Of a stretch of 64,000 nucleotides of DNA, positions 5,379-59,695 are shown in pieces. The notes beneath the pieces are model-generated. The model had not been told where the DNA came from. It worked only from the letters and a program-made list of their open reading frames with translations, and did no database searches. Source of the DNA: Desulfovibrio sp. (GTDB lineage Bacteria > Desulfobacterota > Desulfovibrionia > Desulfovibrionales > Desulfovibrionaceae); the NCBI GenBank assembly GCA_031288535.1, contig JAITRF010000077.1, positions 1 through 64,000 on the forward strand, written 5' to 3'. A program made the position numbers and the translations under genes. Each line of letters starts with the position of its first letter. Positions within the stretch are counted from its first letter, which is position 1.

Positions 5379-5395
5379 TTTCGCCTCCTCTATAT

Positions 5396-5510
5396 AGCAT
5401 TTTACGCTTGAGATTGTCATTTAACGGCGAAGCAAGTTCGCCTCGCGACAATCTCTCCGCGGGGATTTGCAGGCAAATTCCCGCAGAGAGATTTTTGCAT
5501 TGGCCGCACG
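5396..5510 (+). repeat. Family A palindromic element, copy A1 (right-hand hairpin degraded)
   Basis: agcattttacgcttgagattgtcatttaacggcgaagcaagttcgcctcgcgacaatctctccgcggggatttgcaggcaaattcccgcagagag. Confidence 0.8.
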
Positions 5511-9733: not shown

Positions 9734-9777
9734 TACCGTTTCCTGATTCCAGCGCGGGAGAACGTTCCGCTTAGGCT

Positions 9778-9904
9778 TTAGAGCAGGTTACGCTTGAAAT
9801 TGTCGCTTAACGGTGAAGCAAGTTCGTCTCGCGACAATCTCGCTGCAAGGATTTGCAGGCAAATCCTTGCAGAGCGGTTTGTACATTTTTAATGATAAAC
9901 CGCA
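9778..9904 (+). repeat. Family A palindromic element, copy A2
   Basis: ttagagcaggttacgcttgaaattgtcgcttaacggtgaagcaagttcgtctcgcgacaatct...gcaaggatttgcaggcaaatccttgcagagcggttt...aaaccgc. Confidence 0.88.
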
Positions 9905-9976
9905 TGATTTCAACATGTTGAGTGAATACATCTTGCGTTTGCATCTGGAAACGGATGCCTTCAAGGAATGATAACG

Positions 9977-11385: not shown

Positions 11386-11390
11386 ATATC

Positions 11391-11540
11391 AAGTTGCGGC
11401 CGATAGGGAGCAAATTGGTGTAGGCTGAAGGCTTTGCCTTCAGCCCGCCGCAAAGGCGCAGGCGGCATTGGCTGCCGCCGTAAAGCGTCGAGGCTGGCGT
11501 GCCTTTCCGCATTCAAACCCGTTTGAATGCAAGTTGGTAT
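11391..11540 (+). repeat. Family B palindromic repeat, copy B1 (150 bp)
   Basis: Same length and same ends as 42031-42180 (aagttgcggcc.atagggag.aaattggt ... gtttg.atgc..gttggtat). Confidence 0.85.
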
Positions 11541-19073: not shown

Positions 19074-19126
19074 GCCCGCTCCGGCTCGGATTGACAGGAT
19101 ATGCTCAGCGCAGAGCGCCGGACCCG

Positions 19127-19252
19127 GAGCATTTTACGCCTGGATTGCCGCTTGACGGCGAAACAAGTTCGCATTGCGACAATCCCGCGGCAAGGATTTG
19201 CAGGCAGATCCTTGCAGAGCGGTTTAACATTTTCAAAGTCAGACCGCTCTAA
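19127..19252 (+). repeat. Family A palindromic element, copy A3
   Basis: gagcattttacgcctggattgccgcttgacggcgaaacaagttcgcattgcgacaatcccgcggcaaggatttgcaggcagatccttgcagagcggtttaacattttcaaagtcagaccgctctaa. Confidence 0.9.
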
Positions 19253-20577
19253 TGTTCGGTCATGGCATTCTGCATGGCTCTGCGTATCGGACCGATAATG
19301 TGGCTGAGCACAGATTTCTTGTCCGTAAGCACATCCACGCTGACCGTCATACCGGGCAGAATTTCCAATTCTTCGCCCCTGTACAATATGCTTTTGCGCT
19401 TAGTGAGAAAGCGCACCTCATACCAGGGATTGCCCTTTTTATCCTCGACGGTGTCGTTGCTGATCTTTGTTACAGTTGCCTCCAGCCCTCCGTAAATGGA
19501 AAATTCATAGGCCGTGACCTTGACCATAGCCGGCTGGTTTACAAAAAGAAAACCGCGGTCCTGGGGGGCGAATTTTGCTTCCACTTCCAGCACTCCGTCG
19601 GTCGGAATTATTTCCATGATGGTTTCGGCGGGTTTGGCGACGCTGTCCTTTTTGAGAATGATGCGCACCACCTTTCCCCGCACCGGAGAGCGCAGTTCGG
19701 TGCGCGTCACCAGTTCGTCCGAGGCCCTGATTTGCTGTTCCACGCTGCTTTGCTCAAGGCGGCTCTTGTTGATCTCGTCGGCTATGCCGGCCATGCGCTC
19801 GGCGCGCAGGTTCTGCAGGCGCTGAACCGCCGCGTTCACGCCGTTTTCGGCCCTGGCTATGGTCTGGGCCACGCTGTTCAGTTCGCCTTCCTGGGTGACT
19901 ATGCGTTGCCTGAGTTGCAGATACTGGATTTGGGAATAAGAACGGCCGACCATGGGCCTTATCGTGGCTTCCTCCTCCTTGAGCAGGGCGAGTTGGCTTT
20001 CATAAGCGCTTTTACGTTCTTTCGCCTCCGCCACTTCGCGCTGGCGCTGTTCCATCTGGGACTGAAGAAGTTTGGTCTGGCCGTCGAACTGCTCTTTGCG
20101 CGTGGCGTACATGCTCAGTTGGGCGGCCACTGCTTCCGGATACAGTTCCTTTTCATTTTCCGTAAACACCGGCGCCAGGTTGTTTTCTTCGGCTGACAGA
20201 CGCTTGATGGAAAGACTTAGTTCGATGTAGCGCGTTTGCAGATCCTTCAGCCCGGCTACGGCCTGGACGTTGGATATGGTGAGCACGGGCTGGTTTCTTT
20301 CCACCATGTCGTTTTCGGACACCAGGATATCCGTGATCGTGCCGCCCCGCTCGCTTTGTATGGGCTGCGTGCCCTGTGCCGGAATAATCTGTCCCTGCCC
20401 GCGCGTGACGTCGTCAATCATGGCCAGATCCGCCCAGATGAAGAAAACGCCGAAAAAGAACAGGCAGGCCAAGGAAAGGGTAAATGCCAGAGGGTGGCCG
20501 CTCCGGTTCATGGCCTTGTCGACGTCATGCATGTATTGCATGTCTACGGTTTCGCCATCGTGTGAAAATACGCTCAT
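19249..20577 (-). CDS. HlyD-family type I secretion membrane fusion protein
   Basis: DDVTRGQGQIIPAQGTQPIQSERGGTITDILVSENDMVERNQPVLTI...TELRSPVRGKVVRIILKKDSVAKPAETIMEIIPTDG. Confidence 0.9.
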   Translation of the reverse strand: MSVFSHDGETVDMQYMHDVDKAMNRSGHPLAFTLSLACLFFFGVFFIWADLAMIDDVTRGQGQIIPAQGTQPIQSERGGTITDILVSENDMVERNQPVLTISNVQAVAGLKDLQTRYIELSLSIKRLSAEENNLAPVFTENEKELYPEAVAAQLSMYATRKEQFDGQTKLLQSQMEQRQREVAEAKERKSAYESQLALLKEEEATIRPMVGRSYSQIQYLQLRQRIVTQEGELNSVAQTIARAENGVNAAVQRLQNLRAERMAGIADEINKSRLEQSSVEQQIRASDELVTRTELRSPVRGKVVRIILKKDSVAKPAETIMEIIPTDGVLEVEAKFAPQDRGFLFVNQPAMVKVTAYEFSIYGGLEATVTKISNDTVEDKKGNPWYEVRFLTKRKSILYRGEELEILPGMTVSVDVLTDKKSVLSHIIGPIRRAMQNAMTEH

Positions 20578-31728: not shown

Positions 31729-33222
31729 ATGAGTTTTCCATCCCCCAGATCTTTCCGCATGACCTGCGTTGTGGAAGAAATTCCCCAAGTGGAAGATCTG
31801 CTGCGCGCCCAAGGTTTTGTTTTTGAGACAGACCCTTTTTACGCTCCCGCCCGTCGTCTGTTGCGCGCCCCTCTCCCTCTCGGGGCGGGTCTCGCCGCTT
31901 TTTTCGGCTGTATTTATATCCAGGACCGTTCATCCATGCTCCCTCCTCTGGCATTAGAGCCTGCGGCGGGCGAGAATATCCTGGACATTTGCGCCAGTCC
32001 GGGAGGAAAGACCTCCATGCTTGCCCGTATGGGCGGCGACTGTTTTGTACTTGGAAACGAACCCGCGCCGAAACGTCTGACTGTGCTGCGCGCCAACCTG
32101 CATGCGCAGAATCTGCTTAACTGCGCTACGGTTTCCTGTCCGGGCGAAGATTTTCCCCTTCCGGGGGTTTCTTTTGCAGGCTGGGATGCGATTTTGCTGG
32201 ACCCACCGTGCAGCGGCTGGGGGACGGTGGAAAAAAATCCCGGAGTGAGAAAACTCTGGCGCGGCGACAAGATAAAAACCCTTACCGGCCTGCAGCGCAG
32301 GCTTCTCGCGCGGGCGGCGCGTCTTTTGAGGCCGGGCGGGCGGCTCGTCTATTCCACCTGTACCGGCAACGGCGCTGAGAATGAAGAACAAATACGCTAT
32401 GCCTGCGAAGAACTCGGCTTGGAGTTTACCCCCTTGTCTTCCACTCCACCCTTCTTTGCCCTGGAAGAAGCTTACTTGCCTCAATACACCGGAGTATGGC
32501 GGATAAGAACGGGAGGGGCTTGCGCGGGCGATTTCGGCGGGCAGGGTTTTTTTGTGGCCGTACTGCGAAAACCGTGGGATTGCCGAACCTCCGGCAAGGG
32601 GAGCGCGGGCACGCGCGCGCCAGGGACTGAAGATCGTCCCGGAAGGGAAAGCGGTGGAAACAATTTTCCTGAGCCCGTTCCAGAGCGGTTTAACTTTGAA
32701 AATGCGCGCTACGGGAACTTGTCCGCAAATCCTTGCCGCGGGACTGTCGCGAAAAGAACCTGCCTCGCCGTCAAGCGACAATTTCAAAGTGAAAATGTCC
32801 TGGGACGCGAAGTCCTTGCCGGGCCGTACCTTGATCCGTCCCTGCTTCCGGACGGTGATGTTACAGCCTTTGGGAACCAAGTATATTTCCTCCCCGGGAC
32901 CCTGCGCACGGCGCCTGAGCTTGCCGTCCGGCCTTATTGCAGGCGGGGTTTTCTCCTGGGAAGCGCGGGCATGGACGGGAGGATACGCACAAACCCCCGG
33001 CTACGGGCGCTTATGCCGACTCGCGCCGCGCTTGCTGCCTCCGGTACGCCTTTCCTCTCGGTGGACGAAGTCGGGCCTCTCCTCGATCTGCTCGAAGGCC
33101 GCGGGCTCGGCGTCAAAGTCAAGATGAAGGAAATAGGCCTCTACTTCCGCGATCTCCCTTTGTGCAGGCTTTCCGTCAAAGGGGGCAGGGCGGTTTTGCC
33201 GCCGCTCGGGAAGACGGGCTGA
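31729..33222 (+). CDS. NOL1/NOP2/Sun (RsmB/RsmF-type) RNA m5C methyltransferase carrying an in-frame family A repeat
   Basis: ILDICASPGGKTSMLA, LLDPPCSGWGTVEKNP, LVYSTCTGNGAENEEQI; repeat-encoded peptide RFNFENARYGNLSANPCRGTVAKRTCLAVKRQFQSENV at 32682-32803. Confidence 0.9.
   Translation: MSFPSPRSFRMTCVVEEIPQVEDLLRAQGFVFETDPFYAPARRLLRAPLPLGAGLAAFFGCIYIQDRSSMLPPLALEPAAGENILDICASPGGKTSMLARMGGDCFVLGNEPAPKRLTVLRANLHAQNLLNCATVSCPGEDFPLPGVSFAGWDAILLDPPCSGWGTVEKNPGVRKLWRGDKIKTLTGLQRRLLARAARLLRPGGRLVYSTCTGNGAENEEQIRYACEELGLEFTPLSSTPPFFALEEAYLPQYTGVWRIRTGGACAGDFGGQGFFVAVLRKPWDCRTSGKGSAGTRAPGTEDRPGRESGGNNFPEPVPERFNFENARYGNLSANPCRGTVAKRTCLAVKRQFQSENVLGREVLAGPYLDPSLLPDGDVTAFGNQVYFLPGTLRTAPELAVRPYCRRGFLLGSAGMDGRIRTNPRLRALMPTRAALAASGTPFLSVDEVGPLLDLLEGRGLGVKVKMKEIGLYFRDLPLCRLSVKGGRAVLPPLGKTG
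32682..32803 (-). repeat. Family A palindromic element, copy A4, inside a coding sequence
   Basis: Reverse complement: attttcactttgaaattgtcgcttgacggcgaggcaggttc...gcgacagtcccgcggcaaggatttgcggacaag...cattttcaaagttaaaccgctct. Confidence 0.88.
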
Positions 33223-33230
33223 GCAATTTC

Positions 33231-33255
33231 ACTTCGAAATTGCTCTGGCGGCCGC
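33231..33255. terminator. Hairpin just after the methyltransferase stop codon
   Basis: GAGCAATTTC acttc GAAATTGCTC, perfect 10-bp stem. Confidence 0.45.
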
Positions 33256-33263
33256 GCGAGCGG

Positions 33264-33325
33264 ACGCCCGCCGTGAAGGCGCAAGCGCAATTTATTTGCG
33301 CGGTTAAGCGCCGGAGCGGGCGCGG
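33264..33325 (+). repeat. Family B variant, copy B5, with a substituted hairpin
   Basis: cgcccgccgtgaaggcgc...ttaagcgccggagcgggcg aligns with B2 (gtccgccgcgaaggcgc...tgtaaagcgccggagcgggcg); GGCGGCA/TGCCGC hairpin replaced by GCGCAA/TTGCGC. Confidence 0.5.
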
Positions 33326-33365
33326 CCTGAAAATAAACCGTGTATAATCTCAAAGGTAAAATGCT

Positions 33366-33492
33366 CTGGAACATTTTACGCTTGAAATGCTTGCTTAACG
33401 GCGGGCAAAGCCCGCCTGCAAGCATTTCACGGCAAGGAGTTGCAAGCAAATCCTTGCAGAGCAGTCCAAATTTCAAAGTTGAACTGTTCTAA
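33366..33492 (+). repeat. Family A palindromic element, copy A5 (type 2 stem)
   Basis: acattttacgcttGAAATGCTTGCttaacGGCGGGCaaaGCCCGCCtGCAAGCATTTCacggcaaggagttgcaagcaaatccttgcagagcagtcc...ctgttctaa. Confidence 0.88.
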
Positions 33493-38070: not shown

Positions 38071-38151
38071 AATGCACCTCCGGTGTAGATGCGGGTAAGA
38101 CTGTTTATATCAATTTTCCTGCGATATAAAGCCTGAACTGCTCCCTGTCTT

Positions 38152-38279
38152 TTAGAGCATTTTACGCTTGAAATGCTTGCTTGACGGCGAGCGAAGCCCG
38201 CCTACAAGCATTTCGCGGCAAGGATTTGCGAACAAGTCCTTGCAGAGCGGTCCAATTTTTCAAAGTCAAACTGCTCCAG
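38152..38279 (+). repeat. Family A palindromic element, copy A6 (type 2 stem)
   Basis: ttagagcattttacgcttgaaatgcttgcttgacggcgagcgaagcccgcctacaagcatttcgcggcaaggatttgcgaacaagtccttgcagagcggtcc...tcaaactgctcc. Confidence 0.9.
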
Positions 38280-40462: not shown

Positions 40463-42202
40463 TCAGGGCTTTGGATTTGACGCCGCCTGGGGTTTGTCGG
40501 CGGGTGTCGGCCCGTTCAGGGCGGATTGGAAAAAAGTCACAAGGAACTGATCTATTTGCCGCGCGATTTTGTTGCGTTCGTCTCCGGAAATGGCGCCGCA
40601 GGCTTCGCCGAGAGAGGCGGCGGTGTCCTGCGAGCAGCGCGCGAACAAGGAGAAGTGATCGGCGCTATCCACGCGCAGGACCTGTGTGGTTGGGGGCAGA
40701 CCGGAAATAAAGGATCGGGAATGCTGCGCCGGGGGATAAAGACGGTCTTTGCCCGCTTCGACCAGCGCGGCGGGAATGTTCACCCTGCGTAGCGCCTCGG
40801 GATTGAACAGCATGCCGCCGGCAGGCGTCAGGAAAGCCAGTGCCCGGATGCTGCGGGGGAACCCCCCGGTTTTGGAGACGGCCGGGAAGGACGCTCTGGA
40901 AAGGGCGCCGGAGTCCGCACTGGTCCGCATCGCGTTTTCTTTTGCGGGGCCAGGCAAATCCGGCTGAGGTATTCTGACGAAACGCCCGCCGCTGTCGGCC
41001 CAGCCGAACAGAGGACCGCCCTGAATATCCAGGATTGGAGACAGAATCGGGCCGAACCCTTTGTCGTCGTCCGGTTCGGCGGGCGGTTCCAAAAGCTCTG
41101 TGGAAATAACCGGGGACGGTTCAGGAAAAGTTTCTTCTTCTTCGCCCCAATTGAGCAGCCATTTCCACCAGGGTCGTTTTTTGGGCATTTCCCCGGCGGA
41201 CAGGGAAGGGGATTCGCGCTTCGTCTCCGCCGTGGGCGCATTGGCGCTCTCCGCCATATACCGGGCGGGATTGGGAGTAAAGATATCTCTGCCTTTTTTT
41301 TCCGCCAGTTCAAGCATGGCCGCAGGCATGCGGGCGAGGCGTTTCGCCGCCCAAGGCGAACAGAAGCCTTCCTCCGGGGACTTGTCCGCGCAGTAGCCTT
41401 CGAGAAACGAAAAATCAGGCAGGAGTCCGAGAAGCTGCAAGACGCTGATGCTGCCGAAGCCGACGCCCATGAGGCCTATGCGGGATGTGTCCGCACAGGG
41501 TCCTATTTCCTGGTTCTCCAGAACGGTTTCCAGGGCGCGGAGCAGGGCGCGCGGCCTTTCCGCAAGCAGCTTTGCCGTATATATGCCGTAGCTTTCCGCC
41601 TGACTGTCCCCGGTGTGGGTCGGGGAAATAACGATTATGCCGGAGCGGGCCAGGGCTACGGCCAGATCGCTGTTGGCGAAGCGGCTGCCCGCCGTGTCAT
41701 GGGAAACAAGCACTACCGGATAAGAACCGGGTACGATTCGGCCGCGCTTGGCCGCGTTGATTACCCAGCCTTCCTGGACAAATTCGACGGGCGTGGCGCG
41801 CCCGGGATACCAGACGGAAAAATCGAAGCGTTCCTGCGTCTCCGGGTCCCATACCCCGAAACTGCGCATGACGGCAGTGTAGTTTTCCGCTCCGGAAGCG
41901 CTTTGCGCCGGTGCGGGCGTAGCAAAGATCCCAAGCAGGACCGCAAGACAGAGACGGAAAAAGGGGCCGCGCAGGGCTGCGCCGCGTGCAGGCGCGGGAC
42001 GCGTAAAACGATCCGGGAAGGAGTAATGCCAAGTTGCGGCCAATAGGGAGAAAATTGGTATCGACTGCAGGCAAAGCCGGCAGTCCGCCGCGAAGGCGCT
42101 GGCGGCATTGACTGCCGCTGTAAAGCGCCGGAGCGGGCGTGCCTTTCCGCGTTCAAATCCGTTTGGATGCGGCTTGGTATAAGGCGGGACTGGAGAGGGC
42201 AT
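40463..42202 (-). CDS. Predicted secreted alpha/beta hydrolase; 5' end read through a family B repeat, start uncertain
   Basis: LCLAVLLGIFATPAPAQSASGAENYTAVMRSFGVWDPETQERFDFSVWYP...YPVVLVSHDTAGSRF...IGLMGVGFGSISVLQLLG. Confidence 0.72.
   Translation of the reverse strand: MPSPVPPYTKPHPNGFERGKARPLRRFTAAVNAASAFAADCRLCLQSIPIFSLLAATWHYSFPDRFTRPAPARGAALRGPFFRLCLAVLLGIFATPAPAQSASGAENYTAVMRSFGVWDPETQERFDFSVWYPGRATPVEFVQEGWVINAAKRGRIVPGSYPVVLVSHDTAGSRFANSDLAVALARSGIIVISPTHTGDSQAESYGIYTAKLLAERPRALLRALETVLENQEIGPCADTSRIGLMGVGFGSISVLQLLGLLPDFSFLEGYCADKSPEEGFCSPWAAKRLARMPAAMLELAEKKGRDIFTPNPARYMAESANAPTAETKRESPSLSAGEMPKKRPWWKWLLNWGEEEETFPEPSPVISTELLEPPAEPDDDKGFGPILSPILDIQGGPLFGWADSGGRFVRIPQPDLPGPAKENAMRTSADSGALSRASFPAVSKTGGFPRSIRALAFLTPAGGMLFNPEALRRVNIPAALVEAGKDRLYPPAQHSRSFISGLPPTTQVLRVDSADHFSLFARCSQDTAASLGEACGAISGDERNKIARQIDQFLVTFFQSALNGPTPADKPQAASNPKP
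42031..42180 (+). repeat. Family B palindromic repeat, copy B2 (150 bp)
   Basis: Colinear with 11391-11540 over the full 150 bp. Confidence 0.85.
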
Positions 42203-52627: not shown

Positions 52628-52760
52628 TCCTTGAGCGGATTGACATTGAAAATATCCTTCCGCTCCGCAGGGATTTGCCTGCAAATCTCTGCCGCGAGAG
52701 TGTCGCAAGGCGGACTCGTTTCGCCGGCAAGCGGCAATCTCAAGCGCAAAACGCTCTCGG
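52628..52760 (-). repeat. Family A palindromic element, copy A7, between fliO and fliP
   Basis: Reverse complement: gcgttttgcgcttgagattgccgcttgccggcgaaacgagtccgccttgcgacactctcgcggcagagatttgcaggcaaatccctgcggagcgg. Confidence 0.85.
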
Positions 52761-59269: not shown

Positions 59270-59420
59270 CCAGAATCCACCACGCATAGACACAACATGG
59301 TGTAAAAATTACTATTTTTCTAAAAGCTTTGGCGAAGCACCATTCCTCCACAGGGGCGCTTACCCATGTGTTTTTATTAATATAATAACAATTTTCTCTT
59401 ATTTGCGTGGTGGATTATGG
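59270..59420. mobile_element. Family C MITE-like element, copy 2 (151 bp)
   Basis: CCAGAATCCACCACGC / GCGTGGTGGATTATGG inverted repeats (15/16); flanked on both sides by GTTA (59266-59269, 59421-59424). Confidence 0.75.
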
Positions 59421-59695
59421 GTTAGAGCGCGTTGCGGTTGCCATCTGCACTCTCGATAGATATTTAAATGAGTTACTATCGAGTGGGGTCCGGTGGAAAT
59501 CATTATCGTTGCTGTCGTCATCCGTACGGCTCGAAGACTCGCCTACGGCTGACGCTCCTCCGGCGGGGCTTCGGGCGGATCCCCAAGTAATCTGCGCTTC
59601 CCTGTAAATTCCCAACCTGGAAAGGGGTTGTTAGGACGAAAGGAACATGTTTTTTTGGATTGTAGAAAAGTCCAACATGTCGCCAAGGAGGGCCA

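Follow-up and report, generated by a model that had tools for sequence, protein, structure and literature searches.

In the window, that is, the whole 64,000-nucleotide stretch of Desulfovibrio sp. DNA analyzed in this study, a gene for an RNA m5C methyltransferase carries a copy of a dispersed repeat, A4 of family A, within its ORF (Table 1). The product matches PF01189 (Methyltr_RsmB-F, E=1.8e-33), and a match to TIGR00446 supports the family. Residues 2-242 form the catalytic part, which is matched by solved relatives, and A4 lies downstream of this part. The first-pass annotation had described an element inserted in frame in a NOL1/NOP2/Sun gene, in the linker that joins the methyltransferase core to the C-terminal domain, with the frame left open. 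This was found to be the case: the ORF is open from end to end, and the site falls in a hypervariable linker, which differs in both length and sequence among the genus orthologs and is probably flexible. A repeat does lie at the limits proposed then (32682-32803), but the family ends place the core and its two flanking dinucleotides slightly differently, as given in Table 1.

Table 1. The host gene, A4, and further copies of family A. Positions without a prefix are those of the window; G000 is the genome of the window (a 2.83-Mb draft), and G095 is Desulfovibrio sp. MAG Nc350_bin8, the nearest relative found.
Feature	Position	Strand or frame	Basis or remark
RsmB/F-family (NOL1/NOP2/Sun) RNA m5C methyltransferase gene, 497 aa, intact	31729..33222	+	Open ORF; PF01189; TIGR00446; solved relatives
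A4, in-frame copy of the family-A MITE, 118-nt core	32683..32800	+	Homology to family ends; further copies; G095 empty site; peptide in frame
Left target dinucleotide CA, putative decayed TA	32681..32682	.	Family ends C-TA-GAGC; IS630-type parent
Right target dinucleotide TG, putative decayed TA duplication	32801..32802	.	As for the left dinucleotide
Family-A copy outside any gene reading frame	5391..5502	-	
Family-A copy (A2 of the first-pass annotation)	9776..9905	-	Hairpin fold z=-7.4
Family-A copy starting at the 3′ end of a secretion-type gene	19123..19253	-	
Family-A copy downstream of the host methyltransferase gene	33364..33492	-	
Family-A copy, intergenic	38150..38279	-	
Family-A copy, no coding gene shown across it	52630..52759	+	
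In-gene copy, Lnt	G000:C38:13900-14032	A4 strand and frame	G095 gap 120 nt
In-gene copy, FtsK	G000:C133:7307-7441	A4 strand and frame	G095 gap 126 nt
In-gene copy, GH57/DUF3536 protein	G000:C39:26787-26921	A4 strand and frame	G095 gap 126 nt
In-gene copy, PHP-like/UvrD-type helicase	G000:C110:1719-1851	A4 strand and frame	G095 gap 114 nt (+15 nearby)
In-gene copy, NapH/NapG-type ferredoxin protein, strongly diverged	G000:C34:18158-18279	A4 strand and frame	G095 gap 117 nt
In-gene copy, CopA	G000:C6:743-874	A4 strand and frame	Frame reading
Possible further in-gene copy	G000:C3:29396-29482		Protein without a Pfam match

The methyltransferase gene was compared with its ortholog in G095. On either side of the site, the two are about 82-83% identical at the DNA level; at the site itself, the G095 gene is shorter by a single stretch of exactly 120 nt and joins cleanly. 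In one placement, this gap corresponds to residues 314-353 of the window protein. Thus, the net insertion is 120 nt or 40 codons (the 118-nt core plus one dinucleotide), in agreement with the roughly 40 added residues reported before. The standard insert of the family is 126 nt, 6 nt more than here, and the frame is kept all the same. None of the A4 peptide is present in the G095 ortholog. The repeat is also absent from inside the gene in the genus orthologs compared, and weak profile matches in those loci fall outside the gene. Among the matches scored, no other site in the genome reaches 90% identity to A4, and this speaks against an assembly chimera. The best explanation is that A4 entered the methyltransferase gene after the split from G095.

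Is the host gene a decayed pseudogene, which would have undermined the first-pass annotation? The DPPCSGWG and STCT motifs are both kept, and comparison with the G095 gene gives a pairwise dN/dS of 0.18 before the insert and 0.24 after it (by region, 0.14 in the core and 0.66 in the linker), ratios that also span the time before the insertion. Since both flanks give such ratios and the motifs remain, no decay was seen; the part after A4 looks constrained, and the gene is apparently working despite A4. No match to the host gene was found among phage records.

Family A is a dispersed, palindromic repeat of about 124 bp without a transposase gene. Its consensus ends are C-TA-GAGCGGTTTRACATTGAAAA and CTCAAGCGTAAAATGCTC-TA-G (C-TA-GAGC...GCTC-TA-G), and the consensus folds much better than shuffled sequences, with three main hairpins (z=-8.9). 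A4 has lost this hairpin potential (z=-0.4). With 40 of 307 candidates scored, the A4 DNA was found to recur in at least 39 further places of the 2.83-Mb genome (71-88% identity, E<1e-8), with one additional weak, partial match. A profile search of 974 kb taken without regard to the repeat gave 123 copies, which by extrapolation corresponds to roughly 350 copies genome-wide. About 4 of these 123 unselected copies lie in genes and about 97% outside them, and the non-genic copies mostly have stop codons or frameshifts. Repeat DNA of the A4 type is present in 14 of 15 genomes of the genus, whose source, read from the name of the sister genome record, is presumably the termite gut. No copies were found in the plasmids searched, and a search with one exact pattern found none in viral contigs.

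The A4 peptide was then searched through the genus genomes in six frames, and matches in long stop-free frames were read and their hosts named. A4 is not a lone case; at least six other genes carry sibling copies in frame (Table 1), and this recurrence in one and the same frame strengthens the parallel with Rickettsia palindromic elements drawn by the first-pass annotation. Six genes, namely those for the methyltransferase, Lnt, the GH57 protein, FtsK, the helicase, and the ferredoxin protein, have an empty site in G095. Each gap is a multiple of 3 nt, no leftover repeat was seen at the junctions, and the net insert is exactly 126 nt at two of the sites. In another species (G126), the gene for an RluA-family pseudouridine synthase has a copy before the catalytic domain in the same frame, which is missing in G107. 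Long open frames over certain other copies (for example, those at G000:C58:27365, C140:6456, C23:5035, and G095:C201:39111) were judged to be antisense or upstream artefacts and not counted. In the case of CopA, the copy starts at the end of the CopA model, and the frame continues into a CopZ-like domain (L155:467-3175, G000:C6); a diverged family-A copy may thus have given a CopA-CopZ fusion.

The open variant of family A has one stop-free frame among the six, and therefore the in-gene copies share their frame. The main consensus of the intergenic copies is one base longer and contains an in-frame TAA, with a second TAA near the right end in the same frame. All six full-length in-gene copies are open with a net length of 0 mod 3, as against 7 of the 91 other full-length copies, a contrast that is partly by construction, for copies were called in-gene on the basis of an open ORF across them. 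The previous remark that other copies are open in the corresponding frame is hence true of these seven, stop-free and of frame-preserving length, but not of the rest. Of shuffled sequences with the family composition, 63% have at least one open frame; therefore, the open frame itself needs no selection. In four in-gene copies, the changes by codon position number 39, 37, and 41. With no codon-position bias, the inserted peptide looks like a tolerated passenger rather than a selected segment, as judged from these few copies.

Elements of the IS630 family target TA, which is duplicated upon insertion. By seeking the family-A ends farther apart in G000, I found an insertion sequence of 1.0 kb (G000:C41:1-998) with the ends TAGAGCATTTTAACTTTGAAA and two ORFs meeting at a run of A. 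The second ORF encodes an IS630-family transposase with DDE_3 (PF13358), above the NCBIfam cut-off for NF033545. A second copy is cut off by the end of contig C6. The 19-base ends of the insertion sequence are identical to those of A4 at 17/19 and 16/19 positions, and to those of the family consensus at 15/19 at both ends. Family A is thus likely a non-autonomous MITE of this resident element, and the matching ends suggest that its transposase moves the family. A duplication of TA upon insertion is probable. The 124-bp core plus TA makes 126 nt, in agreement with the net insert at the two empty sites mentioned above. A paired k-mer test across decayed copies gave no clear signal of a target-site duplication, and the flanking dinucleotides of A4 itself are CA/TG, not TA. 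Two other origins were considered. An IS701-type origin, prompted by the CTAG-like target, was rejected, since PF13546 occurs in 1 of 15 genus genomes and is absent from this one; a Y1/RAYT origin is very unlikely, as the whole genome has just two partial Y1_Tnp matches (36 and 26 bits). The IS630-family transposase (L087:53-986) lies in two frames that join at eight consecutive A, the arrangement one would expect of programmed frameshifting. Both copies of the insertion sequence adjoin GTTGTGCTAG-like sequence (L087:998-1100, L155:119-135), which at L087 is a tandem array rich in CTAG.

Rickettsia provides the best-known palindromic insertions in frame, and for repeats of this kind the mover has rarely been identified. 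Rickettsia palindromic elements (RPE) are repeats of 100-150 bp with many copies, some of which have entered unrelated protein genes in frame (PMC10969869, PMC2229807). Family A is likewise palindromic, many-copy, and in frame in several unrelated genes, clean against orthologs. In contrast to Rickettsia conorii, where nearly half of the RPEs are in ORFs (PMC10969869), about 4 of the 123 unselected copies of family A are in genes, and a likely parent insertion sequence was identified. Because of this low share of copies in genes, family A was not classed as an RPE, although it works like one. ERIC (RU-1) of enterobacteria is a mostly intergenic 127-bp repeat with TA at its termini and an open frame of 42 amino acids fused to genes (PMC2759123, PMC2229807). 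TA termini, a 42-codon open frame, and a mostly intergenic distribution are common to family A, while sequence and host differ; no parent insertion sequence is known for ERIC (PMC2229807), unlike family A with its likely one. RUP of Streptococcus pneumoniae is a MITE with a TA target and ends matching the resident IS630-Spn1 (PMC2229807), just as the family-A ends match a resident IS630-type element. RUP has stop codons in all six frames (PMC2229807) and therefore makes no in-frame insertions, unlike family A. In the Correia/NEMIS repeats of Neisseria, one length variant is open and found in genes, and the other has stop codons and is intergenic (PMC2229807); the 107-bp Correia form is MITE-like and fused in frame in genes (PMC10969869, PMC2229807, PMC2759123). 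Family A has the same two kinds of copy, open in genes and stop-bearing between them, but another sequence, size, and host. The Correia/NEMIS repeats also have IHF and RNase III features. Family A seems to unite traits of RPE, ERIC, Correia, and RUP in a genus of Desulfovibrionaceae.

As a whole, it is very probable that family A is an IS630-mobilized palindromic MITE with one permissive frame, which survives in linkers and loops and leaves a passenger peptide. The non-autonomous element of about 124 bp would be mobilized in trans by the IS630-family transposase and inserted at the TA within CTAG-like sites, and duplication of the TA would bring the gain to 126 nt or 42 codons. Such a length would keep the frame, and with the permissive strand and phase, a gene would acquire a segment of about 42 residues without being broken. 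Insertions in other phases or in the structured cores of needed genes would be removed by selection, while those in linkers and loops would persist; A4, placed in the variable linker that separates the methyltransferase core from the C-terminal domain, may be one of these survivors. The likely parent transposon, the empty sites in the sister species, and the rule of a net 126 nt with one open frame in six would together account for the pattern. It is very unlikely that family A is instead a REP/BIME-type element moved by a Y1 (RAYT) transposase. Palindromy with several hairpins, CTAG-like ends, and mostly intergenic copies would fit such an element, but the terminal inverted repeats match the resident IS630-family element, and the genome offers nothing of the Y1 domain beyond the two partial matches. 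That the insert is ancestral and was precisely excised in G095 is extremely unlikely. Cut-and-paste elements are able to leave a site, but here six independent sites would all have been emptied without leftover repeat, and the more distant methyltransferase orthologs also lack the repeat in the gene.

The inserted peptide might have become useful and been kept by selection, for example as a flexible, basic RNA-binding linker. It is rich in R and K, its frame is open in every in-gene copy, and the ferredoxin copy is strongly diverged, yet open. Against this, the changes are even over the three codon positions, the host proteins are unrelated, and the insert-free G095 ortholog is intact in each case tested, so that an adapted peptide is improbable. 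With a panel of close relatives, one could distinguish a passenger from a useful segment. It is likewise improbable that an open-frame MITE lineage is kept frame-compatible by selection, as a genus-wide mobile cassette of about 42 residues by which the linkers and loops of housekeeping proteins are extended time and again and neighbor genes are joined, as in the CopA-CopZ read-through. If true, it would be a standing source of new protein segments.

Apart from family A, a second dispersed repeat family (starting AGCAATTTCACTTYGAAATTGCTC) lies directly 3′ of the methyltransferase stop codon (window 33221-33375), and about 15 pieces of the sister genome have copies of it (75-94% identity). More dispersed repeat families were found in the window at 11390-11540, 42030-42180, 404-488, and 59353-59437 (85-151 nt, 82-83% identity).
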